Assembly (NCBI GenBank): GCA_003818285.1
Contig: RPRB01000021.1
Location: forward strand, 1 to 43,066
DNA from: Myxococcaceae bacterium
GTDB taxonomy: Bacteria > Myxococcota > Myxococcia > Myxococcales > Myxococcaceae
DNA length: 43,066 bases
Direction of reading: 5' to 3'
Shown: positions 2 to 23,116 of the stretch, piece by piece
Layout: each line of letters starts with the position of its first letter
Position numbering within the stretch: the first letter of the stretch is position 1
Notes under the pieces: generated by a model
Database searches by the model: none
Told to the model about the DNA's origin: nothing
The model's input: only the letters and a program-made list of their open reading frames with translations
Made by a program: the position numbers and the translations under genes

Positions 2-778
2 TACGGCGAGGCCGGTGCGCGCGTTCCGCCGCGACAGTGGGTCCGGGCCGGCGCGCTGGGCTACGCGCTGGGGCTGGTGCTGCCGATGGGGCGGGGCGCC
101 GGGGAGGCCGCGCGCGCCGTCCTGCTCGCCCGGAGCACCGGCGGGGCGCGGGCGGCGGTGGCCGCGGTGCAGATGCAGGGCGTCGTGCTCCTCTCGACCA
201 CGGTCATCACCGTGCCGGTGCTGGTCGCGACGACGGCGCTGCTCGGCCCGGGCGCGGCGGCGGGCCTCCTCCTGGCCAATGGGCTGGTGGCCGGAGGCAT
301 CGGCCTGAGCATCCTGCTGGTCCGTGAGCGGGCCAGGCTGGGGCGGCTCTTCGGAGGTCTGGTGAAGCGGCTGGAGAGCTTCGGGCTGGCCTTCGACGCC
401 GTGCCGGGCGCCTCCCGGGGGGACCTCGCGCGCTCGCTGGGCTGGGAGTCCCTGGGGCGGGTGGCCCAGGTGGTCCAGTGCGGAGTGGCGCTGGCCGCCA
501 TCGGCGAGCACACCGAGCTCGGGCGGGTGCTGGTCACCCGCGGTGCGCTCATCCTCGGGAGCGCCGTGGGCGACTTCATTCCCGGACAGCTCGGAGCGAC
601 CGAGGCGATGATGGTGGTGGGGGCCGGCGCGCTCGGGCTGACCGCGGCCTCGGCGGCGACCCTGGCCCTGCTCATCCATGCGGCGCAGATCCTCCTCGGG
701 CTCCTCTGCGCCGGTCTCACCGTCGCGCTGCCGGGCCAGCAGGAACGTCCGCGGCTTCCGGTGGAGGACGCGCCGTGA
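2..778 (+). CDS. Flippase-like integral membrane protein (UPF0104 / LPG synthase TM family), 5' truncated
   Basis: The reading frame is open from base 2, so the N-terminus lies outside the window. The 258 visible residues are mostly hydrophobic helices separated by short basic loops. The C-terminal part carries the conserved patch DFIPGQLGATEA between membrane segments, as seen in the lysylphosphatidylglycerol synthase transmembrane/UPF0104 family. Members are transmembrane halves of aminoacyl-PG synthases or stand-alone proteins thought to move lipid-linked molecules; no soluble transferase domain follows here. The stop is 10 bases before the aldo/keto reductase, which is followed after 14 bases by a GMC oxidoreductase, so the three probably form one transcript. 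The substrate is unknown; a role with envelope lipids or glycolipids is inferred from family and from the glycosyltransferases nearby. Confidence 0.75.
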   Translation, partial: YGEAGARVPPRQWVRAGALGYALGLVLPMGRGAGEAARAVLLARSTGGARAAVAAVQMQGVVLLSTTVITVPVLVATTALLGPGAAAGLLLANGLVAGGIGLSILLVRERARLGRLFGGLVKRLESFGLAFDAVPGASRGDLARSLGWESLGRVAQVVQCGVALAAIGEHTELGRVLVTRGALILGSAVGDFIPGQLGATEAMMVVGAGALGLTAASAATLALLIHAAQILLGLLCAGLTVALPGQQERPRLPVEDAP

Positions 779-788
779 GCTCCGCGGC

Positions 789-1703
789 ATGCCGGTGATT
801 CCCCCGGTCGTCGCCGGCGCGGCGCGCCTGGGTTTCGTGCTCCCCGACTGGCTCGCCGGGCGGTCGCGGCGCGAGGAAGAGCTCCGCACGCTCGACGCGC
901 TGGTGGAGGCGGGCTGCACCGCCTTCGACCTCGCCGCCTCCTACCAGCTCGGCGGGACCGAGCGGCTGTTCGGACGGTGGATGGCCTCCCGGGGCCTCCG
1001 GGACCGGCTCTTCCTCATCGGCAAGGGCGGACATCCCTACCCGGGAGTGCGCCCGAACCGGCTGACGGCAGACGCGCTCTCTGCCGACCTCCACGCGAGC
1101 CTCCGGCGGCTGCGGATCGAGCGGCTCGACCTGTACCTCCTCCACCGCGACTTCCCGGCCGCCCCGCTCGAGCCGATGGTCCGGACGCTCGGCGCCGCGC
1201 TCCGGGAGGGGAAGATCCGCGCCTGGGGCGTGTCGAACTGGAGCGTGGAGCGGATCGAGGCCATCCAGGCCGCGGCCCGCCAGGAAGGCCTCCCGGCCAT
1301 GGCCGCCAGCAGCCCCCACTTCTCGCTGGTCGACTGGGCCCGGCCGCCCTGGACGGGCTCGGTGAGCATCGCCGGCCCGGCCGGGCGGGGGGCACGGAGC
1401 TTCCATGCGCGGACGGGGCTTCCGGTGCTGGCCTGGTCTCCGCTCGGAGCGGGCTTCCTCACCTCGGAAGAGAGCCGCGGCTGCTACGGCAGCCCGGCCA
1501 ACGCCGCCCGGCGCGAGCGGGCGCGGGCCCTCGCGCGGGACCGGGGCTGGTCGGTGGCCCAGGTGGCGCTGGCCTACCTCTTCTCCCAGCCCTTCCCCGT
1601 GTCGGCGGTGGTGGCGGCGAGCACCGCGGCGAAGATGCGGGAGAACCTCGCAGCGGCCGGCCTCCGGCTGACGGCGCGCGAGGTCGAGGCGCTCGAGGCC
1701 TGA
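789..1703 (+). CDS. Aldo/keto reductase
   Basis: A 304-residue protein of the AKR superfamily, a TIM-barrel NAD(P)H-dependent carbonyl/sugar oxidoreductase. All four catalytic residues are visible: D47 and Y52 in FDLAASY, K79 in LIGKGG and H119 in LYLLHRD. The C-terminal segment with VVAASTAAKMRENLAA matches the coenzyme-binding end of the barrel. An upstream in-frame start would read 37 residues of low-quality sequence overlapping the previous gene, so ATG at 789 is preferred. It lies between the flippase-like gene and a GMC oxidoreductase, suggesting a paired redox step on a sugar, polyol or alcohol. The substrate cannot be read from sequence. Confidence 0.85.
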   Translation: MPVIPPVVAGAARLGFVLPDWLAGRSRREEELRTLDALVEAGCTAFDLAASYQLGGTERLFGRWMASRGLRDRLFLIGKGGHPYPGVRPNRLTADALSADLHASLRRLRIERLDLYLLHRDFPAAPLEPMVRTLGAALREGKIRAWGVSNWSVERIEAIQAAARQEGLPAMAASSPHFSLVDWARPPWTGSVSIAGPAGRGARSFHARTGLPVLAWSPLGAGFLTSEESRGCYGSPANAARRERARALARDRGWSVAQVALAYLFSQPFPVSAVVAASTAAKMRENLAAAGLRLTAREVEALEA

Positions 1704-1717
1704 AGTAGAAGGGAGCC

Positions 1718-3379
1718 ATGGAGGTCCTCCACCGAGCCGAGGAGTGGGACGCCATCGTCGTCGGGTCGGGCGCGACGGGCGGAACCGCGGCCTGGAAGCT
1801 CACCCGCGCCGGCCTCCGGGTTCTGGTGCTCGAGGCGGGAACTCCGGTCACCCGGCGCCGTGACCACGGCTCGTTCGCGAGCAACGCGGCGAGGCAGCTC
1901 TGGCGCCACCTCGTCTCCCACCGGCAGGACGTGCAGAAGAGCCACCCCACCTGGTGGGCCACCAACCCCGATTTCTTCGTGGACGACGTGGACAACCCGT
2001 ACTCCACGCCGCCGGACCGGCCGTTCCGGTGGATCCGCTCGCGCCGGGTGGGGGGCCGCTCCTTGGTCTGGGACGCGGTCACTCCGCGATTCTCGGACTT
2101 CGACTTCAAGGCGGCGAGCCGGGACGGCTTCGGCCCGGACTGGCCGCTCACCCACGCCGAGCTGGCGCCGCACTATGCCGAGCTGGAGCGCCTCCTCCGC
2201 GTGCACGGGTCGCGGGAGGGGCTGCCCCAGCTCCCGGACGGCGATTTCCTCGAGCCGAGGCCGATGACGCCGGCGGAGCGCCTGTTCAAGGAGCGGGTGG
2301 AGCGGGTGTTCCCCGAGCGGCGGGTGATCATCTCCCGCGGGCTCTTCGCCCGCCGGCCTCCGGAGAAGGGCGAGGCGCTGTCTCGCATCTCCAGCCCCGC
2401 CACCACGCTCCGGGCCGCGCAGGAGACCGGTCGTCTCACGCTTCGAAGCGGGGCGGTGGTGGCCCAGGTGCTGGTCGGCGCGGACGGGAGGCGGGCGACG
2501 GGGGTGGCGGTGGTGGACGCGGTGACCGGGCGGACCGAGGAGGTGCGGGCGAGGCTGGTCTTCCTCTGTGCGTCGACGCTGGAGAGCGTCCGCATCCTGA
2601 TGAACTCGCGCAGCGCGGCGCACCCCGAAGGCATCGGCGCCTCCTCCGGCGTGCTCGGGCGCTACGTGATGGACCACAGCGCGGGCAACGTCTACTTCTA
2701 CCTCCCGGACGTGCCGGACACCGGTGGGCCGTTCGAGCTGCTGGGCAGCGACAGCATCATGATTCCGCGCTACCAGAACCTCGGGGAGCGCCGGGAGCCG
2801 TACCTGCGCGGCTTCGGGCTCTGGGGTGGGATCCAGCGGCTTCCGGTGCCGAACTTCCTCCGCAAGCACAAGGACGTGGCCTTCGGGTTCCTCTGCGCCC
2901 GCTCGGAGACGCTGCCCCACCGCGACAACCGCATCGAGATCGACCCCTCGCTGAAGGACCGCTGGGGCATCCCCGCCGCGCACATCGTCTGCGAGTGGAA
3001 GGAGGAGGACCTCCGGCTGGCGCGGGCGGCACGCGCAGCGGCGCGGGAGATCGTCGAGGCGGGCGGTGGCGTCTGCGCCGAGGTGACCGAGCTGTTTCAC
3101 ACCCCCTTCGTCACCGGGCACATCCGGAAGATGCAGAAGGAGTGGACGCTCTCCACGCCCGGCATGTTCGTCCACGAGGTCGGCGGCGCAAGGATGGGAA
3201 CCGACCCCAGGGACTCGGTGGTGGACCCTTCCTGCCGTACCTGGGACGTGCCGAACCTCCTCGTCAGCGACGGGGCCTGCTGGCCCACCTCCGGCTGGCA
3301 GAACCCGACGCTCACCGAGATGGCGGTCACCGCGCGTGCCTGCGCTCACGCCGTCGAGCAGCTCCGCCAGGGGCCCTAG
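1718..3379 (+). CDS. GMC-family FAD-dependent oxidoreductase
   Basis: A 553-residue glucose-methanol-choline oxidoreductase. The N-terminal FAD-binding Rossmann motif GSGATGG lies at residues 16-22 and is followed by an acidic strand end (VLVLEAG). The GG-R-S-LVWD segment near residue 115 is the second FAD contact. The C-terminal GMC domain has HEVGGARMGTDP, then VSDGACWPTSGWQNPTLT with the Asn that partners the catalytic His in many members. A strong Shine-Dalgarno (AAGGGAG) precedes the ATG. No signal peptide is seen. It probably oxidises a primary or secondary alcohol, perhaps the product or substrate of the adjacent aldo/keto reductase. Its TAG stop is shared with the convergent gene on a CTAG tetramer at 3376-3379. 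Confidence 0.88.
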   Translation: MEVLHRAEEWDAIVVGSGATGGTAAWKLTRAGLRVLVLEAGTPVTRRRDHGSFASNAARQLWRHLVSHRQDVQKSHPTWWATNPDFFVDDVDNPYSTPPDRPFRWIRSRRVGGRSLVWDAVTPRFSDFDFKAASRDGFGPDWPLTHAELAPHYAELERLLRVHGSREGLPQLPDGDFLEPRPMTPAERLFKERVERVFPERRVIISRGLFARRPPEKGEALSRISSPATTLRAAQETGRLTLRSGAVVAQVLVGADGRRATGVAVVDAVTGRTEEVRARLVFLCASTLESVRILMNSRSAAHPEGIGASSGVLGRYVMDHSAGNVYFYLPDVPDTGGPFELLGSDSIMIPRYQNLGERREPYLRGFGLWGGIQRLPVPNFLRKHKDVAFGFLCARSETLPHRDNRIEIDPSLKDRWGIPAAHIVCEWKEEDLRLARAARAAAREIVEAGGGVCAEVTELFHTPFVTGHIRKMQKEWTLSTPGMFVHEVGGARMGTDPRDSVVDPSCRTWDVPNLLVSDGACWPTSGWQNPTLTEMAVTARACAHAVEQLRQGP

Positions 3380-4932
3380 AGCCGGGCGGCACCCGAGAGC
3401 GGCGGTGACCCCGAAGGAGCCCGCTCATCGCTCACCGTGGACGAGCGCACGCGCGGGCCCGGCACGAGGATCCAGACCGCCCAGGCCATCACCAGCGCAT
3501 TCCTCAGGAGGAAGAGCACCCCCATGAGGGGATGCGGCCCTTGACCCAGCAGCCCGAAGAAGAAGTGCTGGTTGAGCTGGGTCAGCAGCATGGCCCCGCC
3601 GAGGAGAAGGACCGCCGTGCGCCGCCGGCTGCCGGTGTCGAGCACCGACACCAGCGCCCCGACCGGCAGGAACCACGCGAGGTACTGCGCGCTGAACACC
3701 TTTCCGAGCGCCATGCTTGCCGCGAGCGTGGCGCAGGCCGCGCGCACCAGGACCTCGCCTGAGATCCGCTCGCCGTCCGGGCCGCGCAGCGCCTCGCGGG
3801 TCTGAACCACGCTCCAGGCGAGGATGGCCGCGGCCGCCAGGAGCGGCAGGACGCCGGCGAGGGGGAGGAGGAAGCGGTCCGCCGGCCCCACCACGTTGTC
3901 GGAGCCGTACGTTGCGACCCGCCACGCCGACGCCGGATCGAAGAAGCGCCCGATGGTGAGCAGCGCCGCCCCGGTGCTCTCCACCTCGAGTGGGCGCTGC
4001 CCGTGGTACTGCACGAGGTCCAGCAGGTGCTCGCCCGTCAGGAGAAAGGGAACTCCCACTGCCACCGCGACGAGACCCGAGACCAGGGCCGTGACCGACA
4101 GCTCCCGCCAGCGCCGCAGAGCGCCCCAGTAAACCAGGGCCACGGGGAGGACCAGCACCGGAACGACCTTGGTCACCAGCCCCACCCCGAGCGCGAGCCC
4201 GGAGAGCACCGGCCTGCGCCGGAGGCAGCCGTCGAGGAACAGGCAGAGCGAGAGCGAGACAACGGCATCGAACCGCCGCACCGCGACCGTTCCGAGCGCC
4301 AGCGCGAGGAGCGTCGCCACCGCGACCGGCGAGGGTTCGGTCTGGGGACGCAGCACACGGCCGATGCGGATGGCGGCCAGCAGCGCCGCGGTCAGCAGCA
4401 GCGCCATCAAGAGCGAGAACACCAGGCGGTAGCCGTCGAGCTCGAGGCCGAGCAGCGCGGGCGGAAGCGCGAGGAGGAAGAATCCCGGGGGGTACTCGAC
4501 GGAGAAGTCCCGGTAGGGGAGGAGCGGCCGGTCCGGGTGCCGGGGAGGGGTCTGCGCCGGGTCGTCGGGATCCGATCCCGTCGCGCTGTCCGGCTGAGGG
4601 CCGGTCCAGCCCTCGAACGGGCGCACGTAGAACGACTGGTAGGGACGCCCCAGCGTGGCGTTGGAGTACGCCAGGTACCGGCTGATGTCGCTGTCGTCGG
4701 TGCCCGCGCCCCGCAGCGCCGCGAGCGCGAAGGCCAGGGTGCGGGGGTAGTCACCCTGGGCCAGTAGCCCATCGCTCCACCGGGCTCCGGCGTGCGAGGC
4801 ACAGCTGTTCCAGAGACCGAAGGTGAGCACGACCCAGGCGACCCACGGCCAGCGGGCGCCGGTGGTGGTCGGCGCCGGGGACGGCTCGTCAGGGGCGGGT
4901 GGGTGTAGGCGCTCCGGAGAGGGCAGGCTCAT
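3376..4932 (-). CDS. GT87-type (DUF2029) integral membrane glycosyltransferase
   Basis: A 518-residue polytopic protein: a Pro-rich cytoplasmic N-terminus, a first membrane helix near residue 28, then about ten more hydrophobic segments. The pattern VEYPPGFFLLALP after a long extracytoplasmic loop is typical of GT-C fold polyprenyl-phosphate-sugar-dependent transferases of the GT87/DUF2029 group. Such enzymes add mannose or similar sugars to lipids or glycans outside the membrane. ATG at 4932 is chosen; a GTG one codon upstream is equally possible. It diverges from the GT39-type gene at 5067, so both may be controlled from the roughly 130-base gap. Donor and acceptor are unknown. Confidence 0.75.
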   Translation of the reverse strand: MSLPSPERLHPPAPDEPSPAPTTTGARWPWVAWVVLTFGLWNSCASHAGARWSDGLLAQGDYPRTLAFALAALRGAGTDDSDISRYLAYSNATLGRPYQSFYVRPFEGWTGPQPDSATGSDPDDPAQTPPRHPDRPLLPYRDFSVEYPPGFFLLALPPALLGLELDGYRLVFSLLMALLLTAALLAAIRIGRVLRPQTEPSPVAVATLLALALGTVAVRRFDAVVSLSLCLFLDGCLRRRPVLSGLALGVGLVTKVVPVLVLPVALVYWGALRRWRELSVTALVSGLVAVAVGVPFLLTGEHLLDLVQYHGQRPLEVESTGAALLTIGRFFDPASAWRVATYGSDNVVGPADRFLLPLAGVLPLLAAAAILAWSVVQTREALRGPDGERISGEVLVRAACATLAASMALGKVFSAQYLAWFLPVGALVSVLDTGSRRRTAVLLLGGAMLLTQLNQHFFFGLLGQGPHPLMGVLFLLRNALVMAWAVWILVPGPRVRSSTVSDERAPSGSPPLSGAARL

Positions 4933-5066
4933 CACTCGGTCGTGGGACGCATCGTCGCTCGCGGCCTTCGGGGGCGTGCGCGAGCACTGGAGTACCCGGA
5001 GGCGGAACGGCAGCGCAAGGCGCTCGGTCGGGGCGGCGTTGACGCTGGCCGCCAGGCGAGGTCAGA
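4933..5066. promoter_or_regulatory. Divergent intergenic region between two membrane glycosyltransferases
   Basis: This 134-base gap must hold the promoters of both the GT87-type and GT39-type genes unless one is read from further away. A TTGACG element at about 5039-5044 could be a -35 box for the plus strand, but no convincing -10 follows. An AGGCGAGG ribosome-binding site at 5054-5061 supports GTG 5067 as the downstream start. Confidence 0.3.
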
Positions 5067-6719
5067 GTGGAACGATGCCCGAGGCCCCCGGGAGAATCGA
5101 AGGATGAGCCGCGGGCCCGCGCGGGCCGGGCGCAGCGCACCACGGCCCTTCTCCGCACCCTCGTGAACCAACCCTCCGGCACGGAGTCCTCTCCCTCCGA
5201 GCTCGCGGTCCCCCCATCCGCGACGCGACCCGAGACCCCCGATGCGGAGCCGGCCCGGAAGGCCGCTCCCCGGTACGGGCGGCGCGCGGCGCTGGTCATC
5301 GTCGTCGCCGGCGTCTTCTACGCGCTCCTGGCCCGCGTCGCCCTGCAGGGTTACCCGTACTCCGGGGACGAGTACTCGACGGTGCTCCAGGCCGAGGGGT
5401 TCGCGCGCGGAGCGCTCAAGGCGCGGGCCCCACCGTTCGCGGACTGGGCCCGGGTCGATCACGTGATCATCGACGAGTTCGTCCGCAGCAAGTATCCGCC
5501 GGGCACGGCCGCGCTCCTGGCCCCGGGCGTTCGCGCCGGGGTCCCGTGGCTGGTGACCCCGCTCGAGGCGATGCTGACACTGGTCGCGTTCTGGTTCGCT
5601 TCCCGGGTGGTGTTCGACGAGCGGCGCGCCTTCCTCGCCGTGGCGTTCCTGGCGACGATGCCGCTCTTCGCCTACCAGGCGGCCACCTTCCTCTCCCACG
5701 TCCCGACCCTGCTCTTCGGCGCGCTGGCGATGCTGGCGGTGGCCCGGTGGGGGCGGTCCCGGCGAGACGGATGGCTCGTGCTCTTCGGATTCTCGGTCGG
5801 GTGCGTGTTCCTCATCCGGCCGGTGGACGCGGCTCTCCTCGGCCTTTCGCTGATCGCCTTTCCCAGCCTGCGGGCGCTGGTGATCGCGGGCGCGAGCGCG
5901 ATGCCCTTCGTGGGGCTCCAGCTCTGGTACAACGCGCTCCAGTACGGGTCCCCCTTCACCGACGGGTACGCGGCGGGCAAGCCGGGCTTCGTCGCCATCT
6001 ACGGCGAGAGTGGCGCGACGGCCAACATCAGCCTGCGGCACCTCTTCTCGCCGCTCCAGATTTTTCACCACCTGGCCGAGCTGGAGACGTTCTTCTTCCA
6101 GTGGACCGTCCCCGGGGCGGCGCTCCTGGCCTGCCTCGGATGGGTGGCGCTCCGACGGGAGCAGGCGGCGGGCGATGGCCGGACGGCGTCCCTCCAGCGC
6201 TTCTTCGGGGTGATGATGGTGCTGTTCCTGGCGGGCCTGCTCCTGACCTTCAACGAGCCCGACGACAGCCCTCGCCCGCGCTACCTCTCGATGGTGCTCC
6301 TCCCGGTCGCCTTCCTCGCCGCGGCCGGCTGGGATGGCGCCGCGTCGTTCGTGCAGCGGCAGCTCGGACGGCGCACCAGCTGGGTGATCGGGGTGGCGAT
6401 GTGGATCGCCCCGCTGTTCCTGATGGCCTCGTACCTCGAGCACCGCATCCCCGAGGTGAAGGTGCACACCGGGCTGTCCGAGGAGCTGGCGCGAGAAGGG
6501 GTGCGCTCCGGAGTGGTGATCCTCCGGGCGGAATGGCCCACCCGCTACGCGCGTAACGGGATGTTCTTCGACCGTTCGCCGCTCCTCTTGTCCCTGCCGG
6601 CGAAGGTCCCTGCCGCCGAGGTGGCGGCGCGCTTCCCCGGGCAGCCGGTGTACGAGGCGTTCGAGCCGCACGGCGCGAATCCCTGGAAGCATCCCTGGGT
6701 CATCCGGCGCGTGCAGTGA
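5067..6719 (+). CDS. GT39-type (PMT/ArnT-like) integral membrane glycosyltransferase
   Basis: A protein of 550 residues with a Pro/Ser-rich N-terminal tail of about 70 residues, then a membrane helix (LVIVVAGVFYALLA), then the GT-C hallmark acidic pair in YPYSGDEYS on the first extracytoplasmic loop. A second conserved loop motif, SKYPPGTAALLAPG, follows, as in dolichyl/undecaprenyl-phosphate mannosyl- and aminoarabinosyltransferases. About ten further hydrophobic segments precede a short periplasmic C-terminal domain. GTG 5067 has a good Shine-Dalgarno; GTG 5163 is an alternative that removes 32 residues. It is followed by a small ORF, an epimerase and a DPM1-like GT2 that could make the lipid-linked sugar this enzyme uses. 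That donor link is inference. Confidence 0.75.
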   Translation: MERCPRPPGESKDEPRARAGRAQRTTALLRTLVNQPSGTESSPSELAVPPSATRPETPDAEPARKAAPRYGRRAALVIVVAGVFYALLARVALQGYPYSGDEYSTVLQAEGFARGALKARAPPFADWARVDHVIIDEFVRSKYPPGTAALLAPGVRAGVPWLVTPLEAMLTLVAFWFASRVVFDERRAFLAVAFLATMPLFAYQAATFLSHVPTLLFGALAMLAVARWGRSRRDGWLVLFGFSVGCVFLIRPVDAALLGLSLIAFPSLRALVIAGASAMPFVGLQLWYNALQYGSPFTDGYAAGKPGFVAIYGESGATANISLRHLFSPLQIFHHLAELETFFFQWTVPGAALLACLGWVALRREQAAGDGRTASLQRFFGVMMVLFLAGLLLTFNEPDDSPRPRYLSMVLLPVAFLAAAGWDGAASFVQRQLGRRTSWVIGVAMWIAPLFLMASYLEHRIPEVKVHTGLSEELAREGVRSGVVILRAEWPTRYARNGMFFDRSPLLLSLPAKVPAAEVAARFPGQPVYEAFEPHGANPWKHPWVIRRVQ

Positions 6720-6807
6720 GTCCCGGGCAGGCGCCGGGGCGGGTACCGGAGGGCCGGCGGCCGGAGAAACACCGGCGATCGGCGGCCGGATGCATTAGGA
6801 GGGGACC

Positions 6808-6909
6808 GTGGCCCCGTTCGTCGACAGCTCCGATCCGCGTGAAACCGAAGCGCTCCTCCCCCGGGACTGGTTCTGGGGCGTGACCAACCACGCGGGCGCC
6901 CCTCGCTGA
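6808..6909 (+). CDS. Small ORF (33 aa), translationally coupled to the epimerase
   Basis: A GTG-start ORF with a near-perfect Shine-Dalgarno AGGAGGGG at 6797-6804. Its TGA overlaps the ATG of the next gene by one base (TGATG at 6907-6911). The peptide is acidic at first, then aromatic (DWFWGVTNHAG), with no membrane segment. I do not recognise it. It could be a genuine small protein, a leader that couples translation into the epimerase, or the remnant of a longer gene. The well-placed ribosome-binding site and the overlap are the only evidence; there is no homology support. Confidence 0.4.
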   Translation: MAPFVDSSDPRETEALLPRDWFWGVTNHAGAPR

Positions 6910-7904
6910 TGTCCGCGGCGTCCATCGCGAGCTTCTCCGGGCGTAGCGTGCTGGTGACCGGGGGTGCCGGCTTCGTCGGCAGCCACGTCGCCGACCGGCT
7001 CCTGTCGCAGGGAGCCGAGGTCTCCATCCTCGACAACTTCTCCACCGGCTGGCATCAGTTCGTGCCCGCCGGCGCCCGCCTCGTCGAGGGGGACCTGCTG
7101 GATCCGGGGGCGGTGCGGCGCGCGCTGGAGGGCTGCGAGTTCGTGTTCCACCTCGCGGCCAACGCCGACGTGAAGGACAACCTCCTCCAGCCGCGGAAGT
7201 GCATCGAGCAGAACGTGGTGGGCACTCAGAACCTGCTCGAGGGCATGCGCGCGGCTGGAGTTCGAGGGGTGGCTTTTGCTTCCACCGGCGCGGTGTACGG
7301 CGAGGCAACGGTGGTACCCACCCCCGAGCACGCGCCCTTCCCCGTGCAGACGTCGATCTACGGCACCTCCAAGCTGGCCGCCGAGGGGCTCCTCACCTCC
7401 TATGCGCTGGGCTACGGCTTCCGGGTGTGGATCTTCCGCTTCGTGTCGCTCCTCGGCCCTCGGTACACGCACGGCCACGTCATTGACTTCTGGCGCCGGC
7501 TGAGGCGCGACCCGACGCGGCTCGATGTGCTCGGCAACGGCCGGCAGAAGAAGAGCTACCTCCACGTCGGCGACTGCGTGTCCGGCATGCTGGTGGCGAT
7601 CGGAGGGTCGGGCGAGCCGATCAACGTCTTCAACCTCGGGCACCACGAGTGGGTCGAGGTCGACGAGAGCATCGCGGTCATCACCGCCACCCTGGGAGTG
7701 AAGCCCCGCATCGTGTACGCCGGCGGTGAGCGCGGCTGGGTGGGGGACTCGCCGCGTGTGCTCCTCGACGCGGCACGCCTGCGTGCGCTCGGCTGGGCTC
7801 CGACGCGGAGCATCCCGGAGAGCATCGTCGAGACGCTCGCCTTCCTGGAGGCCAGCCCCTTCGTCAATGACCGGCAGATCCCTCCGGAGGGCCTGCCCCG
7901 ATGA
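6909..7904 (+). CDS. NAD-dependent nucleotide-sugar epimerase/dehydratase (extended SDR)
   Basis: A 331-residue extended SDR. The NAD-binding motif TGGAGFVGSHV lies near residues 18-28, with acidic strand end ILDNFSTG, which indicates NAD rather than NADP. The catalytic set is visible: Ser/Thr in FASTGAVYGE and the YxxxK pair in IYGTSKLAAE. The later RYTHGHVIDFW and KKSYLHVGD segments match the sugar-nucleotide binding region of UDP-glucose 4-epimerase and dTDP/GDP-sugar 4,6-dehydratase relatives. It is the second coding step of a plus-strand set and overlaps the next gene by ATGA (7901-7904). It probably supplies the activated sugar for the neighbouring glycosyltransferases; the exact sugar cannot be assigned. 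Confidence 0.85.
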   Translation: MSAASIASFSGRSVLVTGGAGFVGSHVADRLLSQGAEVSILDNFSTGWHQFVPAGARLVEGDLLDPGAVRRALEGCEFVFHLAANADVKDNLLQPRKCIEQNVVGTQNLLEGMRAAGVRGVAFASTGAVYGEATVVPTPEHAPFPVQTSIYGTSKLAAEGLLTSYALGYGFRVWIFRFVSLLGPRYTHGHVIDFWRRLRRDPTRLDVLGNGRQKKSYLHVGDCVSGMLVAIGGSGEPINVFNLGHHEWVEVDESIAVITATLGVKPRIVYAGGERGWVGDSPRVLLDAARLRALGWAPTRSIPESIVETLAFLEASPFVNDRQIPPEGLPR

Positions 7905-9535
7905 CCGGAACGAACGGCTCCGTGCGCTCGTTCCAGTTCAGGCCCACCCCGGCGGTACGGGCCGCGCGGGCCCATAACCGGTTCGTGGACTGTCCGGCCT
8001 GCCAGGCCGACCGGCCGAGCTACCTCTTCCATCGCGCCGGAGTCCGGTTCGTGCGCTGCACGGCCTGCGGCGCGGTGTACGTGAACCCCACCCGCGACCG
8101 CCCGTTCAACGACCTGGACATCGAGCGCATCCAGACCTTCTCCCATCCCCGCGACCGGGCGCTGATGTCCGAGGACTTCGAGCGCCTGCTCCGGCGGGTG
8201 GAGGAAGATCATCGGCGCATCCTCGGAGCGCCCCTGCGGCGCACGCTTCTCCTCGGGCGATACCTGCCGGAGTTCGCCCGGGTGCCGTCGGCGGAGCGGC
8301 TCGGCCTGGAGGTCGCCGCGTTCGACGACGCGCGCTTCACCCGCGTGGCCCTCGATTCCGACCTGGAGTGGACCGCCCCGTCCCTGGCGCGCGGGCCACA
8401 GGTGGTCATCCTCGCCGAGCTGCTGGAGAGCCTCGCCGATCCGCACGCTGTGCTCTCGCACCTCGTCGCGGCGTTGCCCCCCGAGACCCTGTTCGTGGTC
8501 ACCTACACCAACGCCGACTCGATCCCGGCGCGCCTCATGCGGAGGCACTGGTCGCAGCTGTTCGACCACAAGTCGGCCTTCTTCAGCACCGGCAACCTCA
8601 CCGCGCTGGCGGCCCGCTCGGGGCTGCTCCTCAAGACCCAGTATCCGCTGCCCGTGAAGCGCACTGCCCGCTACGTCGGCGACATCCTCTCCCGCGCCGT
8701 GGAGCGGCCGGCACTGTCCGCGGTGCTGAACGCGACGCCGCTCGGGGACGTGGAGGTGCCGGTGCGCGCCGGTAATCGCGTGGTGGTGTTCGGCCGCCGC
8801 ACGGGCGAGGCGGCGGCCCGCGAGAAGCTGTCGATCGTGATGCCGGTCTACAACGAGGCCCGTTACGCGGCCGAGGTCATCGACGCGGTGCTCGCCAAGC
8901 CGCTGAAGATCGACCGCGAGCTGATCATCGTGGAGAGCAACTCCACCGACGGGACGCGGGCCATCGTCCGGAGCTACCAGGGCCGCCCTGGGGTTCGGGT
9001 GGTGCTCGAGGACCGGCCGCGCGGCAAGGGGCACGCGGTGCGGACGGGCCTGGCCCACGTCACCGGAACCATCGTGCTCATCCAGGACGCCGACTTCGAG
9101 TACGACATCGACGACTACGACGCGCTCCTCGAGCCGTTGCTCCAGCACCAGGCCACCTTCGTGCTCGGCTCGCGCAGCCTCGGCCTGGACGACTGGAAGG
9201 TCCGCAGGTACGACGCGACGCCGGTGCGGGGGATGATGCTGAACTACGCCCAGCTGGTGTTCGCCCGGACCTACAGCGCGCTCTACCAGCAACGCGTGAC
9301 GGACGTGAACACCATGTTCAAGGTGTTCCGCGCCGAGTGCCTCGATGGACTGGATCTCAAGTCCAACGGCTTCGAGCTGGACATCGAGCTCGCCTGCAAG
9401 CTGGCGAGGAACGGCCACTCTCCGATGGAGGTGCCGGTCAACTACGTGGCGCGCGGCTTCGCCGAGGGCAAGAAGATCCGGTTCTGGCGCGACGCCGTGC
9501 CGTCGTACGCGTCGCTGTTCTGGCACCGCTTCTGA
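7901..9535 (+). CDS. Fusion: zinc-ribbon/degenerate SAM-methyltransferase-like domain + DPM1-like GT2 glycosyltransferase
   Basis: A 544-residue two-domain protein. Residues 31-56 hold a zinc ribbon (C31, C34, C53, C56) followed by a region shaped like Methyltransf_23/13: VVILAELLESLADP near 168-181 corresponds to the post-motif II helix, and the HWSQLFDHKSAFFS segment matches the conserved end of that family. The glycine-rich SAM motif I is not present where expected (LLLGRYLPEFARVP), so methyl transfer is doubtful. Residues 309-544 are a GT2 domain: SIVMPVYNE, then DADFEYD at 396-402 as the metal/nucleotide site, like polyprenyl-phosphate mannose/glucose synthases. No C-terminal membrane helices are present. 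It likely makes a lipid-linked sugar for the GT-C enzymes upstream; the N-terminal part may be structural or bind the acceptor. Confidence 0.78.
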   Translation: MTGTNGSVRSFQFRPTPAVRAARAHNRFVDCPACQADRPSYLFHRAGVRFVRCTACGAVYVNPTRDRPFNDLDIERIQTFSHPRDRALMSEDFERLLRRVEEDHRRILGAPLRRTLLLGRYLPEFARVPSAERLGLEVAAFDDARFTRVALDSDLEWTAPSLARGPQVVILAELLESLADPHAVLSHLVAALPPETLFVVTYTNADSIPARLMRRHWSQLFDHKSAFFSTGNLTALAARSGLLLKTQYPLPVKRTARYVGDILSRAVERPALSAVLNATPLGDVEVPVRAGNRVVVFGRRTGEAAAREKLSIVMPVYNEARYAAEVIDAVLAKPLKIDRELIIVESNSTDGTRAIVRSYQGRPGVRVVLEDRPRGKGHAVRTGLAHVTGTIVLIQDADFEYDIDDYDALLEPLLQHQATFVLGSRSLGLDDWKVRRYDATPVRGMMLNYAQLVFARTYSALYQQRVTDVNTMFKVFRAECLDGLDLKSNGFELDIELACKLARNGHSPMEVPVNYVARGFAEGKKIRFWRDAVPSYASLFWHRF

Positions 9536-9674
9536 GCGTCAGCCGAGGTCCTTCAAGGCGATCTCGGTCCCGCGGCGGCGCCCATCCGCGCCGCAGCGCG
9601 CACAACTGCTTGTCTTCTGCCCCGCCTCACCCGGGCCGGTGCCTCGATGCGGCGGACGTGGCCGGGGCCGTCGG

Positions 9675-10271
9675 TCACGGTCCGAGCACGGTGTCGAAGA
9701 CCACCGCCGCCCGCGGCCCGCCCCGATCCTCCAGCGTTACGGGACGGATGAGCCGCCGGTCCTCGAGGATCGGGTCCTTCCTCCAGTTCTGGTCCGGGTC
9801 CCCAGCGAACGCCGGATCGGTCGCGAAGTAGAGCTGGGTGACGAGCACCTTCCGGCCCGGTGCGCTGACCCGGTAATGGATGTGCTGGGCGACGCGCTCG
9901 GGGTAGTGACCGGGCATGACGGTGAGGAAGCGGTAGCTCCCGTCGGAGCCAGCAACGACGCTCGCCCGGTACCGGTAGCCCACGAGATCGTAGATTCCTC
10001 GCCCGTCAGCATGCCAGACCTCGAGGACGGCGCCGGACAGCGGCTTCCCGGCTGGGTCGAGCACCTTCCCGCTCACCACGAGCGGCAGCCCTGACTCACC
10101 TTGCGCGACGAGTGTGGTCGCGGGCGGTGCGCCCCGCTTGTAGTACGGGCCCAGCCCGCTCTCGGGCGTGAGGGGCAGGGAAGTCGGAGACGCGCCGAGC
10201 GCCGGGCCGGCGACGACCGCCGCGCCCAGGGTGAGACCGGCTTCGACCAGCTCGCGGCGGGTGAGAGACAC
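9675..10271 (-). CDS. Secreted intradiol-type (protocatechuate 3,4-dioxygenase-like) dioxygenase
   Basis: A 198-residue protein of the intradiol ring-cleavage dioxygenase fold. The N-terminus SLTRRELVEAGLTLG plus an alanine-rich stretch ending near ALGA resembles a Tat-type signal, with RR at residues 5-6, so export after folding is likely. The iron ligands can be placed: Y94 in GRGIYD, Y123 in MPGHYP, and H130 and H132 in QHIHYR. The VLEVWHADGRG segment is typical of the family. GTG at 10271 is the start. It is shorter than catabolic PcaG/H subunits and has no aromatic-degradation neighbours, so it may act on extracytoplasmic phenolics. Substrate unknown. Confidence 0.8.
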   Translation of the reverse strand: MSLTRRELVEAGLTLGAAVVAGPALGASPTSLPLTPESGLGPYYKRGAPPATTLVAQGESGLPLVVSGKVLDPAGKPLSGAVLEVWHADGRGIYDLVGYRYRASVVAGSDGSYRFLTVMPGHYPERVAQHIHYRVSAPGRKVLVTQLYFATDPAFAGDPDQNWRKDPILEDRRLIRPVTLEDRGGPRAAVVFDTVLGP

Positions 10272-10438
10272 GGGTCGGCGAGCCTAGTGGCCGCGCGAGT
10301 GCGAGGAACAGTCTCGACGTCTCCTGAGCTCGGTCCCCGAGCGGGTGCCCTCGCGATCCCCGGTGCCGAGCTCGGCTGGAGAGCGTGCGAGTGATTGCTA
10401 TTGCCTCTGAGCGTTGACTCCCGCCTGGTGCCCGGCGG

Positions 10439-11083
10439 TCAGCCGCGGGTCAGCACGATATGGGTCGCCTTCTCGCTGGGCACGTGCTCGGTGACCCGGA
10501 ACCCGAGGCGCGGGAGGTCCAGGCCGGCCAGGAGGTTCTCGCCGTTCCCGAGCAACACCGGCGAGTAGGCGAGGTGCATGAGATCCACCAGGCCGGCCTC
10601 GAGGTACTGCCGGATGGTGGCGACCCCTCCGCCCAGCCGGACGTCGCGCGGTCCGGCCGCCTCGCGGGCGCGGGCGAGCGCCTCCTCGATCCCGCCGGTG
10701 ACGAAGTGGAAGGTCGTCCCGCCCTTCATCGTCAGCTCACGGCGCGGATGGTGGGTGAGCACGAACACCGGCACGTGGTACGGCGGCTCGTCGCCCCACC
10801 ATCCCTTCCAGGACTCGTCGGGCCAGGGTCCGCGGACGGGACCGAACATGTTTCGCCCGAGGATCCACGCTCCGAGGTTCTCGAAGCCTCGGGCGGCGAA
10901 GCCGTCGTCCACGCCCGTGGTCCCACCCTGTCGCCCGAACGTCTGCTGGAAGGTCCGGGTGGGGACGAACCAGGCATGCAGGGCCTCACCGCCCACCCCG
11001 AGCGGATTCTGCAGATCCTGAGCGGGGCCGGCTCCGAAGCCGTCGAGCGAGAGAGCGAATGCGTGGACGCGGAGGCGAGACAT
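10439..11083 (-). CDS. Dihydrofolate reductase-fold (RibD C-terminal-like) reductase
   Basis: A 214-residue protein of the DHFR/RibD_C family. The start SRLRVHAFALSLDGFGAGP is the characteristic first strand, and ENLGAWILGRNMFGP and VRLGGGVATIRQYLEAGLVD are the two NADPH-contact regions. The C-terminal LAYSPVLLGNGENLL matches relatives annotated as deaminase-reductase or DHFR-family proteins. These are NADPH-dependent reductases of mostly unknown substrate and are not the essential folate enzyme. A clear Shine-Dalgarno (GAGGAG) precedes the ATG. It is read in the same direction as the unknown pair upstream (88-base gap) and the dioxygenase downstream, but the gaps are too large to claim an operon. 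Confidence 0.82.
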   Translation of the reverse strand: MSRLRVHAFALSLDGFGAGPAQDLQNPLGVGGEALHAWFVPTRTFQQTFGRQGGTTGVDDGFAARGFENLGAWILGRNMFGPVRGPWPDESWKGWWGDEPPYHVPVFVLTHHPRRELTMKGGTTFHFVTGGIEEALARAREAAGPRDVRLGGGVATIRQYLEAGLVDLMHLAYSPVLLGNGENLLAGLDLPRLGFRVTEHVPSEKATHIVLTRG

Positions 11084-17239: not shown

Positions 17240-18265
<1,026 letters not shown>

Positions 18266-19969
18266 TCACTGCTCCCTTGGGGTTGAGGTGATGGGGGGGA
18301 GGGTGATCGCGCCCTCCGCCGCCGAGGTGACGAGCGCCGCGTACTTGGCGAAGACGCCCGAGGCGTAGCGTGGGGTCGGTGGTCTCCAGGCGCGCAGCCG
18401 GGCGTCGATCTCTTCCGCGGGCAGCTCGAGCCGGAGCGAGCGCTCGTTGACGTCGATGACCACCATGGCGCCCTCGCGGACCGCGGCGATGGGTCCGCCC
18501 GCGGCGGCCTCGGGGGCCACGTGCCCCACCATCACCCCGCGGGTGGCGCCGCTGAACCGCCCGGCAGTGATCAGCGCCACCTGCTCGCCGAGGCCCTGTC
18601 CGACCAGCGCCGCGGTGACGCCCAGCATCTCCCGCATGCCCGGGCCGCCGCGGGGGCCTTCGTAGCGGATGACCACCACGTCGCCCGAGCGGATCTGTCC
18701 GGCCCGCACCGCGGCGAAGGCGTCCTCCTCGCGCTCGAACACCCGCGCCGGGCCGCGGTGGTACGGCCGCTCGTGGCCGGCCATCTTCACCACGCAGCCG
18801 TCGGGCGCGAGGTTCCCGTGGAGGATGACCAGGCCTCCGGTGGGGCTCACCGGCTCGGAGAGCGGGCGTACCACCTGCTGCCCCGGCGTCTCCTGCGCTC
18901 CGGCTGCATGATCGGACCAGCGGCGCCCGTCCGCGGTGAGGGCTTCCCCGTCGAGCTTTCCGGCCTGTAGGAGTCGCTGCACGAGGAGCGGCACGCCGCC
19001 GGCCCGATCAATGTCCACTGCCACGTAACGTCCTCCGGGCTTGAGATCCGCCAGCAGCGGCGTGCGCCGGCTGACCCGGTCGAAGTCGTCGATCGACAGC
19101 GGGATGCGCGCCTCGCGGGCGAGCGCCAGAAGATGCAGCACCGCGTTGGTCGAGCCGCCGGTGGCGGCCACCGCGGCGATCGCGTTCTCGAACGAGGCCC
19201 GGGTCAGCCGCTGGAGCGGACGGCTGCCCTCCCGGAGCAGCTGGACGGCGAGCGCGCCCGCGGCGCGGGTGGCCGCGTCCTTCCGCGGGTCCTCGGCGGG
19301 GATGGTGGCGTAGCCCACCGGAGACAGCCCCAGCACCTCCAGCGCCAGGGCCATGGTGTTTGCGGTGTACTGACCGCCGCAGGCGCCGCTGCCGGGACAG
19401 GCCGAGGCCTCCAGCTCCTCGAGCTGCGCGGCCGACATCCGGCCCGCGGCGTGGGCGCCCACGCCCTCGAACACGTCCTGGATGGTGACATCGCGGCCCT
19501 CGAAGCGGCCGGGGCGGATGGAGCCTCCGTAGAGCACCAGCGACGGCACGTCGAGCCGGAGCAGCGCCATGGCCGCCGCGGGGATGGTCTTGTCGCAGCC
19601 GACCAGCGCCACCATTCCGTCGAAGAGGTGACCCCGGCCGACCAGCTCGATCGAGTCGGCGATGACCTCGCGGCTGACCAGCGAGGCCTTCATCCCCTCC
19701 GTACCCATGGTGACGCCGTCGCTGATGGCGATGGTGTCGAACTCCATCGGGGTGGCGCCCGCGGCGCGGATGCCCTGCTTCGCCTGCTCCGCCAGCCGGC
19801 GCAGGTGGAAGTTGCAGGGCATGGTCTCGGTCCAGGTGCTGGCCACGCCGATCAGCGGGCGCGCCAGGTCCTCCCGGCTGAAGCCGATGCCCCGGAGCAT
19901 CGACCGGGCCGGAGCGCGGTCGAGCCCCTCGGTGAGGGCGCGGCTCTTGTGGCGTGGATCGAAGGTCAT
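18266..19969 (-). CDS. ilvD: Dihydroxy-acid dehydratase
   Basis: A 567-residue IlvD/Edd-family dehydratase that makes 2-keto acids from dihydroxy acids in valine and isoleucine synthesis. Cluster and metal ligands are visible: C52 in TMPCNFHL, C125 and K127 in GCDKTIP, and the CPGSGACGG motif at 191-199. GGSTNAVLHLLALA and GRFSGATRG are further family signatures. The length is typical. Its ATG overlaps the leuB stop by ATGA (19966-19969). Both branches of the pathway share this enzyme, in keeping with its place inside the combined ilv-leu operon. Confidence 0.95.
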   Translation of the reverse strand: MTFDPRHKSRALTEGLDRAPARSMLRGIGFSREDLARPLIGVASTWTETMPCNFHLRRLAEQAKQGIRAAGATPMEFDTIAISDGVTMGTEGMKASLVSREVIADSIELVGRGHLFDGMVALVGCDKTIPAAAMALLRLDVPSLVLYGGSIRPGRFEGRDVTIQDVFEGVGAHAAGRMSAAQLEELEASACPGSGACGGQYTANTMALALEVLGLSPVGYATIPAEDPRKDAATRAAGALAVQLLREGSRPLQRLTRASFENAIAAVAATGGSTNAVLHLLALAREARIPLSIDDFDRVSRRTPLLADLKPGGRYVAVDIDRAGGVPLLVQRLLQAGKLDGEALTADGRRWSDHAAGAQETPGQQVVRPLSEPVSPTGGLVILHGNLAPDGCVVKMAGHERPYHRGPARVFEREEDAFAAVRAGQIRSGDVVVIRYEGPRGGPGMREMLGVTAALVGQGLGEQVALITAGRFSGATRGVMVGHVAPEAAAGGPIAAVREGAMVVIDVNERSLRLELPAEEIDARLRAWRPPTPRYASGVFAKYAALVTSAAEGAITLPPITSTPREQ

Positions 19970-21075
19970 CCCCGCTCCTCCAGCAGCGACCCCGGCCTCG
20001 ATCTCGAGGAGGCCGCCCGCCGGAGCGCGCGAAGCACCGCGCTGCCGGCTTCTCGCGTGGTGGCTGGTTGCCATCCCGGTCCGGCCACGTCCTCGGTCAG
20101 GACGCCCTCCTCGACCGCGGCGCTCACCGCTGCCTCGACCGCCGAGGCCGCTTCGGGCAGGGCGAGCGAGTGACGGAGCAGCATCGCCGCGCTGAGGATC
20201 GCCCCGTAAGGATTGGCCAGGCCGCGCCCGGCGAGGGCCGGCGCCGAGCCGTGGATCGGCTCGTAGAGGCCGCGCGGCCCCTCCCCCAGCGAGGCCGAGG
20301 GGAGCATCCCGATGGAGCCGCCGAGCACCGCCGCCTCGTCGGTGAGCACGTCGCCGAACAGGTTCTCGGTGACGATGACGTCGAAGGACTTCGGCGCGCG
20401 GACGAGGAGCATCGCGCAGCTGTCCACCAGCTGGTGCTCGAGATAGACGTCGGGGAACTCGGTCTGCACCACCCGGGTGGCGACCTCGCGCCACAGGCGC
20501 GAGGTCTCCAGGACATTCGCCTTGTCCACCGAGGTGAGCTTCCGCCGGCGCGCCCGCGCGTAGCCGGCCGCCACGCGCACCACCCGCTCGATCTCCGCGA
20601 CCGTGTACGAGCAGACGTCCTCGGCGCGGTCGACCTCGCGCCGCTTGGCGCCGAAGTAGATGCCGCCGGTCAGCTCCCGCACCACCAGGAGGTCCAGCCC
20701 GCGGAGGAGCTCGGGCCGGAGCGGCGAGCTGGAGATGATCTGCGGATGGATGGTGACCGGACGGAGGTTGGCGAAGAGCCCGAGCTGTTGCCGGAGCGCC
20801 AGGAGGCCCTGCTCCGGGCGCACCTTCGCTTCCGGCGGCCACTGGGGCCCGCCCACCGCACCGAGCAGCACCGCGTCCGCGGAACGACAGAGGGCGAGCG
20901 TCTCGTCGGGGAGCGGCGATCCGGTCTGGTCGATCGCGCAGCCGCCGATGAGGGCCTGGCCCAGCTCGACCCTCGCCCCGTGCAGCGTGGCGGCCTCCAC
21001 CATCGCGCGCGCGGCGAGCTCGGTCACCTCGGGGCCGATCCCGTCGCCGCCGAGCACCGCGACCAGGCGACTCAT
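19966..21075 (-). CDS. leuB: 3-Isopropylmalate dehydrogenase
   Basis: A 369-residue isocitrate/isopropylmalate dehydrogenase-family enzyme, which oxidatively decarboxylates 3-isopropylmalate in leucine synthesis. GGDGIGPEV opens the protein. ELTGGIYFG and the substrate-binding arginines near FANLRPV follow, then [19 protein letters not shown] with the metal-binding Asp residues, and [18 protein letters not shown] for NAD binding. ATG 21075 overlaps the leuD stop by four bases. The gene order leuC-leuD-leuB is common. Confidence 0.94.
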
Positions 21076-21659
21076 GGCTCCTCCTCGCGACGGCGAGCCC
21101 GCTCGTGGGCAGTGATCGCGGCGGACCGCGCCAGCAGGAAGCCGAGCTCGTCGATGCCGTCGAGCAAGCAGCGGCGGGCGAACGGGTCGATCGAGAACCG
21201 AGCCCGCATGCCGGGCGCCCGAACCTCCTGCGCCTGGAGATCCACGGTCACCTCCGTGAAGGGGTTCGCCAGCAGCGCGCGGTGCGCCTGCTCGTCCACC
21301 ACCGCCGGGACCAGCCCGTTCTTCACGGCGTTGTTCCGGAAAATGTCGGCGATGGACGCGCTGATCACCGCGCGGAAGCCGTGGTCCACCAGCGCCCACG
21401 GGGCGTGCTCCCGCGAGCTGCCGCAGCCGAAGTTGGCGCCGGCGACGAGAATGCACGCCCCCTCGGCTCGCGGGTCGTTGAGCGGGAACTCCGCCACCGG
21501 GGCCCCGGTCGCGTCGTAGCGCCAGCCGGAGAAGAGCCACTTCCCGAGGCCCTCCCGCGTGGTCCCCTTGAGGAACCGGGCGGGGATGATCTGGTCGGTG
21601 TCGACGTCTCTCCGGGGCAGCACCACCGCCCGGGAGGTGAAGGTGCGGAACGGCTCCAT
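21072..21659 (-). CDS. leuD: 3-Isopropylmalate dehydratase small subunit
   Basis: A 195-residue small subunit of isopropylmalate isomerase. [15 protein letters not shown] near the N-terminus and [14 protein letters not shown] are the swivel-domain signatures that bind substrate over the [4Fe-4S] cluster of Leu[18 protein letters not shown] is also conserved. Its ATG overlaps the leuC TGA by one base (TGATG at 21661-21657), so the two subunits are probably made in equal amounts by coupled translation. Confidence 0.95.
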
Positions 21660-23116
21660 CACCGTCCCTCCTCGGCGCGGGCGTCCACGAGCCCGCGCGG
21701 ATCGGCCAGCGCGCCGGCGACCGCGGCGGCCGCGGCAGTGAGCGGGCTGGCCAGGAAGGTCCGGGCGCCCGGCCCCTGCCGACCCTCGAAGTTGCGGTTG
21801 GAGGTGCTGACCGCCGACTGGCCGGGCGGCACCTGGTCCCCGTTCATCCCGATGCACATCGAGCAGCCCGGCTCCCGCCACTCGGCGCCCGCCTCGAGGA
21901 ACACGCGGTGAAGGCCTTCCGCCTCCGCAGCACGCTTGACCTCGCGCGAGCCGGGCACCACCAGCGTCCGGACCCGCGGTGCCACCCGGCGCCCGCGGAG
22001 AACCGAGGCCGCCGCCCGGAGATCCGAGAGCCGGCCGTTGGTGCAGGAGCCGATGAACACCACGTCGATGGGGTGTCCCTGCAGCGGCTGCCCCGGGCGC
22101 AGTCCCATGTACCGGAGGGCCGACTCGAGGCCCCGGCGCGCGGCGGGCTCCTGCTCGCGCTCCGGGTCCGGCACTCGCCCGGTGATCGGCGCGGACATCC
22201 CCGGGTTGGTCCCGAAGGTGACGGTGGGCTCGAGCGCGGAGGCGTCTATCTCGACGGTCGCGTCGAACGGAGCAGCCTCGTCGCTCCGGAGAATGCGCCA
22301 GCGGGCGAGCGCGGACTCCCAGGCCCGCCCCCTCGGCGCGCGCGGGCGGCCGTGCAGGTACTCGAAGGTCGTGTCGTCGGGCGCCACCAATCCTGCCCGC
22401 GCGCCGGCCTCGATGGACATGTTGCAGAGGGTCATCCGCGCCTCCATGGAGAGCGCCCGGATCGCCTCGCCCGAGTACTCCAGGACGTGCCCCGTGCCGC
22501 CGGACACGCCCAGGCGAGAGATGATCGCGAGAACGAGGTCCTTGGCGGTGACGCAGGCCCCGAGCCGGCCGGCCACCCGGACCTCCATCGTTCTCGGTCG
22601 CCGCTGCAGGAGACACTGCGTGGCGAGCACGTGAGCGACCTCGCTGGTCCCGATGCCGAAGGCGAGTGCGCCGAACGCCCCGTGGGTGCTGGTGTGGCTA
22701 TCGCCGCAGACGATGGTCCGGCCCGGCTGCGTCAGACCGAGCTCCGGGCCGATGACGTGGACGATGCCCTGGTGCTCGGTGCCGAGCGGGTGCAGCTCCA
22801 CCCGAAAGTCGCGGCAGTCCTGCTCCAGCGTGTCCAGCTGGACGCGGCACTCGGGGTCGGTGATCACCATCTCGCCCGCCTCTCCCGCCGGAGTGGTGGG
22901 CGTGGAGTGATCCATCGTGGCGAGCGTCAGGTCCGGACGTCGCACCCGGAGACCGCGCTCGCGGAGCAGGGCGAAAGCCTGCGGAGAGGTGACCTCGTGG
23001 ACCAGGTGCAGGTCCACGAACAGCACCGCGGGCGTCTCCGCGGTCTCCGGCTGGACCAGGTGCCTCTCCCAGATCCGGTCGAACAGGGTTCGGAGTGGGG
23101 CTTCAGACCGCTCCAC
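21659..23116 (-). CDS. leuC: 3-Isopropylmalate dehydratase large subunit
   Basis: A 485-residue aconitase-family large subunit, slightly longer than typical Leu[11 protein letters not shown] is the usual N-terminal motif, and [21 protein letters not shown] follows near residue 140. The cluster cysteines are in [12 protein letters not shown] and [11 protein letters not shown], and [10 protein letters not shown] closes the family pattern. The GTG start at 23116 lies 14 bases inside the 3' end of leuA. It forms an isomerase with LeuD in leucine synthesis. Confidence 0.93.

Follow-up and report, generated by a model that had tools for sequence, protein, structure and literature searches.

A single gene in the window (the whole stretch of DNA that was analysed, 43,066 nucleotides long) joins a zinc ribbon and a degenerate class I methyltransferase scaffold to a glycosyltransferase of family GT2. 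Its sequence makes it very likely that the methyltransferase domain is now a pseudoenzyme. The favoured reading, which is given a probability of about 0.55, is that a former sugar methyltransferase, now attached to a polyprenyl-phosphate-sugar synthase, has probably been retained as a module for substrate binding or docking. A first-pass annotation of this DNA had proposed that the scaffold became a binding or scaffolding module for the sugar-lipid product. The turn to a non-catalytic module is supported by the loss of cofactor and catalytic positions, both here and in five relatives of two groups, and by purifying selection in relatives. The role suggested for the module can also be made more specific, because the fold matches that of NDP-sugar C-methyltransferases, which act on the nucleotide sugar, and because an epimerase gene is linked. 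The features discussed are collected in Table 1.

Table 1. Positions in the window of the fused gene, its parts and its neighbours.
Feature	Position	Strand	Basis
Fused gene, Zn ribbon + degenerate class I methyltransferase scaffold + GT2, 544 aa	7901..9535	+	open ORF; Pfam; six further fused relatives
Zinc ribbon, residues 28-64 (C31, C34, C53, C56)	7982..8092	+	four Cys invariant in 21 aligned sequences
Methyltransferase-like scaffold, residues 83-302	8147..8806	+	predicted fold, pLDDT 76.5, pTM 0.78; nearest MtmC, TcaB9, KijD1
Degenerate SAM motif I, residues 114-127	8240..8281	+	acidic residue and second Gly lost, 3-residue gap
Motif II acidic residue E137, retained	8309..8311	+	alignment with unfused relatives
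S177, at the position of TcaB9 H181	8429..8431	+	H in 52/53 unfused relatives
K224, at the position of TcaB9 H225	8570..8572	+	H in 51/53 unfused relatives
GT2 domain, predicted polyprenyl-phosphate sugar transferase type, residues 308-544	8822..9532	+	Pfam; ArnC/GtrB/DPMS Z 19-21.5; 48% identity to Lawsonia GT2
DAD motif (DXD type), residues 396-398	9086..9094	+	QDAD identical in 7/7 fused proteins
NAD-dependent epimerase/dehydratase gene	6909..7904	+	Pfam Epimerase E 9.5e-52; stop overlaps fusion start (ATGA)
PMT_2/GT39-like GT-C glycosyltransferase, upstream, same strand	5067..6719	+	Pfam PMT_2 E 7.2e-8
GT87 glycosyltransferase, divergent from PMT-like gene	3376..4935	-	Pfam GT87 E 3.8e-11

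The Fused Gene

The frame runs uninterrupted from ATG to stop through 544 codons, and GC3 is even across the junction (0.93 in the N-terminal half and 0.96 in the GT2 half). With Pfam, Glycos_transf_2 is matched at residues 311-449 (E 7.7e-28). Methyltransf_23 (PF13489) is matched at 36.2 bits, above the 27-bit Pfam cut-off; the match covers only positions 75-159 of the 164 in the profile, leaving unmatched the half that contains the SAM motif. An artificial fusion, made by a frameshift or by chimeric assembly, is ruled out because six more independent fused genes of equal build exist. No sigma-70-like promoter was found in 4700-9900 of the window.

The N-terminal Domain

The N-terminal half had been described as keeping the zinc ribbon and the late helices of Methyltransf_23-like enzymes. 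The zinc ribbon is kept: when the window domain is aligned with 18 Myxococcota Zn-ribbon methyltransferases, the alignment extends from the ribbon to the last strand and C31, C34, C53 and C56 are invariant. The late helices are also kept, although the domain is not limited to them; the scaffold is complete and it is the ligand site that has been lost. A model of the domain built on 21 sequences is nearest to MtmC (4rv9), TcaB9 (4e2x, 3ndi) and KijD1 (5t64), with Z 14.6-17.6, rmsd 2.8-3.2 and 198-216 residues aligned within window residues 24-302. The next match is yeast NTM1 (Z 11.9). Foldseek agrees (best E 1.4e-9), and a profile built from this domain with its relatives matches TcaB9, zinc cysteines included, at E 2.8e-22. 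The four-Cys zinc part, with cysteines that align with those of TcaB9, and the class I core are both present as in NDP-sugar C-methyltransferases. TcaB9 is treated in PMC9539859.

The glycine-rich SAM motif, noted as missing in the first-pass annotation, is indeed gone. For motif I the consensus of the relatives is LLDVGxGxGxFL and the window protein has LLLGR---YLPEFA: L117 stands for the acidic residue, G119 is kept, and an R for the second glycine is followed by a three-residue gap. Among 53 unfused relatives, motif I keeps its acidic residue and its first glycine in 53 each and its second glycine in 52, and motif II keeps its acidic residue in 53; the residue matching H181 of TcaB9 is kept in 52 (a count that is mildly biased, because the search pattern for part of a set of 20 relatives allowed H or S there, the others having been found otherwise) and that matching H225 in 51. 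The corresponding six residues of the window protein are L, G, R, E, S and K. The 53 relatives are those 20, 31 of 34 listed frames (the window's own aside) and two from locus L171; left out were a fragment (L044) and two frames, L061 and L032, that are the same genes as L075 and L078.

The active-site residues of TcaB9 were taken from the mutants named in PDB entry titles. This set, H181, Y222, E224 and H225, corresponds to S177, F221, H223 and K224 in the window protein; of the four positions, the unfused relatives conserve only those matching H181 and H225. The acidic residue and GxGxG-type loop by which motif I of an active class I SAM-dependent methyltransferase is recognized are absent from the window protein, and no conserved SAM site could be discerned in the sequence. 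A methyltransferase that is still active, with an unusual SAM site made from the remaining G119 and E137, would account for the retention of these two residues (which also weighs against a binding or docking module) and for the complete fold of the model, and the fused copy of the Planctomycetota group, L172, does keep motif I. Such an enzyme would have to work with the motif I acidic residue, the second glycine and three loop residues gone and with both catalytic-position histidines replaced, and in the model residues 139-162 have pLDDT <50. Continued activity is held to be improbable.

The GT2 Domain

The GT2 half was described earlier as intact and of DPM1 type. It has a GT-A type GT2 fold with a DXD motif, and both the Pfam match and the motif shared by all fused proteins bear out that it is intact. 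The DPM1 label is a fair one, as the nearest folds to this half of the full-length model include ArnC, GtrB and dolichyl-phosphate-mannose synthase. Other GT2 enzymes, for example WrtF, reach about equal Z, so that the acceptor is not fixed by fold alone; the domain is predicted to be of the polyprenyl-phosphate sugar transferase type. The full-length model (pLDDT 66.9, pTM 0.54) is too weak to be used for domain packing.

Fused Relatives

A survey for the fusion, suggested with the first-pass annotation, has turned up the six further fused genes, all outside the window's phylum: one in the Rokubacteria group, four in the Chloroflexota group and one in the Planctomycetota group (group names follow the NCBI titles of the loci on which the searches were centred). 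In a whole-genome search of the Rokubacteria-group phylum the fused gene was detected in 1 of 95 genomes; it is 39% identical over the alignment and is cut by a contig end just past the zinc-ribbon position. A two-row alignment search of 246 Planctomycetota-group genomes detected one fused gene; the same search of 261 genomes from the Chloroflexota group detected four, in two genomes. Three of these four are diverged copies in one genome, G1338 (loci L169, L170 and L171). In the window's own phylum the only one of 189 genomes with a fused gene is that of the window. All of these counts are lower bounds because thresholds differed and samples were partial. No fused copy was seen in the phyla of G201 (0/282 genomes), G202 (0/8) and G203 (0/299). 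These searches covered partial samples at strict thresholds (1e-30 to 1e-55), two of them scored only a few candidates per genome, and the empty result for G203 in particular shows no absence.

Single-protein scans reach close relatives only, and they missed the fused family. With them, no close relative of the N-domain was found among 212 candidate stretches from a collection of 84,980 genomes or among 15 candidate stretches from viral contigs, and there was none in plasmids. Viral contigs also gave none in the alignment search (194 stretches) and the GT2 search (7 stretches). Residues 1-303 were compared with 145 genomes from the order and with 195 from the phylum; the relatives are only about 25-37% identical, and those examined are Zn-ribbon class I methyltransferases. 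Two fusion candidates, in G422 (L152) and G298 (L120), were plain GT2 on inspection.

The four cysteines of the zinc ribbon are kept in all six fused proteins that reach the region, the window protein included; the seventh is the one cut by the contig end. In five of the relatives (the Rokubacteria-group protein and the four from the Chloroflexota group) motif I is lost along with about 19 residues after it, the acidic residue of motif II among them. The histidine matches of these five are replaced by K/K/K/R/Q and, in all five, by N. A GHPF-like stretch is shared at the former glycine loop, with DHPF in L168 and GHSL in L171. The sixth relative, L172, keeps EIGCMQG, the acidic residue of motif II and the H225 match, with R at the H181 match, and its methyltransferase is seen by Pfam as full (73.9 bits). 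Between the window protein and the other fused proteins, identity is 18-22% for the N-domain and 47-51% for GT2. At L171 about 100 bases separate the fused gene with its dead methyltransferase (8191-9948, plus strand) from an intact methyltransferase that stands alone (10053-10778, minus strand) and groups with the N-domains of the fused family.

METTL14 pairs with METTL3, and the pseudo-methyltransferase might likewise be the partner subunit of a separate, active Zn-ribbon methyltransferase. The close neighbours at L171 would fit such a pair. The arrangement has been seen at that one locus only, however, and in the window's own genome the N-domain had no match but itself at E 0.001; a partner of this kind is given little chance of being the explanation.

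Selection and History

Six of the 10 possible pairs among the five degenerate relatives gave dN/dS values of 0.22-0.38 in the N-domain and of 0.08-0.19 in GT2; these are rough because dS is near saturation. From these sequence comparisons it is well supported that the N-domain of the five is under purifying selection. The same may not hold for the window N-domain, because of its low identity to the others and its long branch: it is weakly placed, beside L075, with 2.2 changes per column.

The ratios also bear on the idea that the methyltransferase is a relic, dead weight that persists as a folded N-terminal cap needed by GT2 and binds nothing itself. In all six tested pairs the N-domain has a higher dN/dS than GT2 does, the N-domain of the window protein is far less similar to those of other fused proteins than its GT2 is, and the GT2 of Lawsonia manages without the domain. 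This last case counts against a binding or docking module as well, for it shows that GT2 can exist without the N-domain. A relic is nevertheless considered unlikely: dN/dS in the N-domain is well below 1, the zinc cysteines and the new GHPF-like motif are conserved, and three copies persist in one genome, G1338.

The GT2 tree (41 of 83 collected GT2 rows) places the seven fused GT2s and the stand-alone Lawsonia GT2 in one clade (100/99), with the window outermost. On this tree a clade of the seven without Lawsonia is not rejected (p-AU 0.196), and neither is one of the window with the five degenerate copies (p-AU 0.24). In the N-domain tree (50 rows) the five degenerate domains form a clade (100/100) that joins L172 and the stand-alone intact methyltransferase from G1338 at 100/98; a single fused clade is not rejected (p-AU 0.128). 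One origin of the fusion is thus compatible with both trees, and a single loss of the SAM site with the GT2 tree. The sole ground for suggesting repeated loss is that the motif I deletion of the window protein differs from that of the five relatives, and such a difference in sequence hints that the SAM site may have been lost separately in the two.

The Neighbourhood and a Sugar Cassette

An epimerase 54-55% identical to that of the window overlaps the fused frame in L169 and is one gene off in L168, where a flippase-like gene lies between the two. An epimerase also adjoins the fused gene in the window, and in Lawsonia (L095) it comes after the stand-alone GT2. No epimerase homologue was found in the stretches (4.7 to 12 kb) of the fused loci L128, L170, L171 and L172, a result that weighs against the retained-module reading.

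Past the epimerase, L168 and L169 have a cassette of genes for an NDP-sugar dehydrogenase, an SDR, a Gfo/Idh oxidoreductase, a GHMP kinase, a nucleotidyltransferase, a SIS isomerase, a HAD phosphatase and a transaldolase; the last part of it is present in L128. The kinase and isomerase of L168 are nearest to heptose enzymes and the phosphatase is close, but a heptose-type sugar is a lead only, because all three score below the NCBI equivalog cut-offs. Much of the cassette occurs with the epimerase in three Myxococcota genomes, where no GT2 of the fused type was detected beside it. The window holds only the epimerase and weak SDR matches out of the cassette.

The cassette (L168:822-8674, L169:56-8152, L128:1634-4702, L106, L107 and L108) is common to the Chloroflexota, Rokubacteria and Myxococcota groups. 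It resembles nucleotide-heptose synthesis with extra oxidation steps, often with NDP-sugar dehydrogenase, Gfo/Idh and SDR. Elsewhere in the window, adjoining aldo/keto reductase and GMC oxidoreductase genes (678-3379) run toward the GT87 gene, and the minus strand at 17240-23116 carries a cluster like those for branched-chain amino acid synthesis, with ketol-acid reductoisomerase, dihydroxy-acid dehydratase and an aconitase-family protein.

A Possible Role for the Domain

In the retained-module reading, the N-terminal half would be derived from a zinc-ribbon sugar methyltransferase, with SAM binding and methyl transfer gone, and would have been kept since it still serves the GT2 half. The GT2 half (ArnC/GtrB/DPM1 type) would move a sugar from its nucleotide to polyprenyl phosphate; if the inferred order of the pathway is right, the lipid-linked sugar would next be taken up as substrate by GT-C enzymes, for example the PMT-like and GT87 proteins encoded nearby. 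The N-terminal half would most likely either hold the sugar moiety, in the nucleotide-sugar donor or in the lipid-linked product, or dock the epimerase that makes the sugar.

A broader and more speculative proposal can be offered tentatively. Sugar methyltransferases fused to this GT2 clade may have become, perhaps repeatedly, non-catalytic sugar-reading domains, and in the Rokubacteria and Chloroflexota proteins the SAM loop may have been rebuilt as a GHPF-like site, so that an unusual sugar, perhaps of heptose type, is selected or channelled to the lipid carrier. If the dead domain does read the sugar, the enzyme that commits this sugar to its lipid carrier would have a specificity filter of its own. 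The fused family provides a natural comparison between a form that keeps the SAM motif (L172) and forms without it.

Comparison with Known Systems

The NDP-sugar C-methyltransferases MtmC, TcaB9 and KijD1 are like the window N-domain in their N-terminal part and class I core; the window protein differs in having lost SAM motif I and both histidine positions. Their chains are about 400 residues long and the match ends at their residue 266-267, where GT2 comes in the window protein. The C-terminal domain of TcaB9/MtmC-type enzymes beyond residue ~267, which we take to be Pfam Methyltransf_14, has no Pfam match at E 1 in the fused protein.

ArnC, GtrB and dolichyl-phosphate-mannose synthase share the GT2 fold and DAD motif with the window protein. 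Unlike these enzymes, it lacks a strongly hydrophobic 19-residue stretch (highest Kyte-Doolittle mean 1.48) and carries the additional N-terminal pseudoenzyme. The Lawsonia intracellularis plasmid GT2 (WP_015353851.1) is 48% identical to the window GT2 and adjoins an epimerase 48% identical to that of the window, but it stands alone, with no methyltransferase domain.

No paper on a fusion of this kind or on its inactive form was found in a search limited to CC-licensed PMC articles. Fusions with an intact motif are already annotated, and the inactive form is a variant of them. For example, the NCBI "bifunctional class I SAM-dependent methyltransferase/glycosyltransferase family 2 protein" of Azospirillum argentinense (WP_247881822.1) has the domain order of the window protein; in contrast, it has no zinc ribbon, its motif I is intact (VLEIGCGTGD) and its GT2 is only 27% identical. 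In L079:2629-4275 a GT2 and a Zn-ribbon methyltransferase also share one frame, but in reverse order (GT2 first) and with SAM motif I intact. The NCBI name calls for both halves to be catalytic; the window protein has the domain order of that class but, by its sequence, has lost the methyltransferase site. A "bifunctional" annotation of methyltransferase-GT2 fusions can therefore be wrong, the methyltransferase being dead yet preserved.
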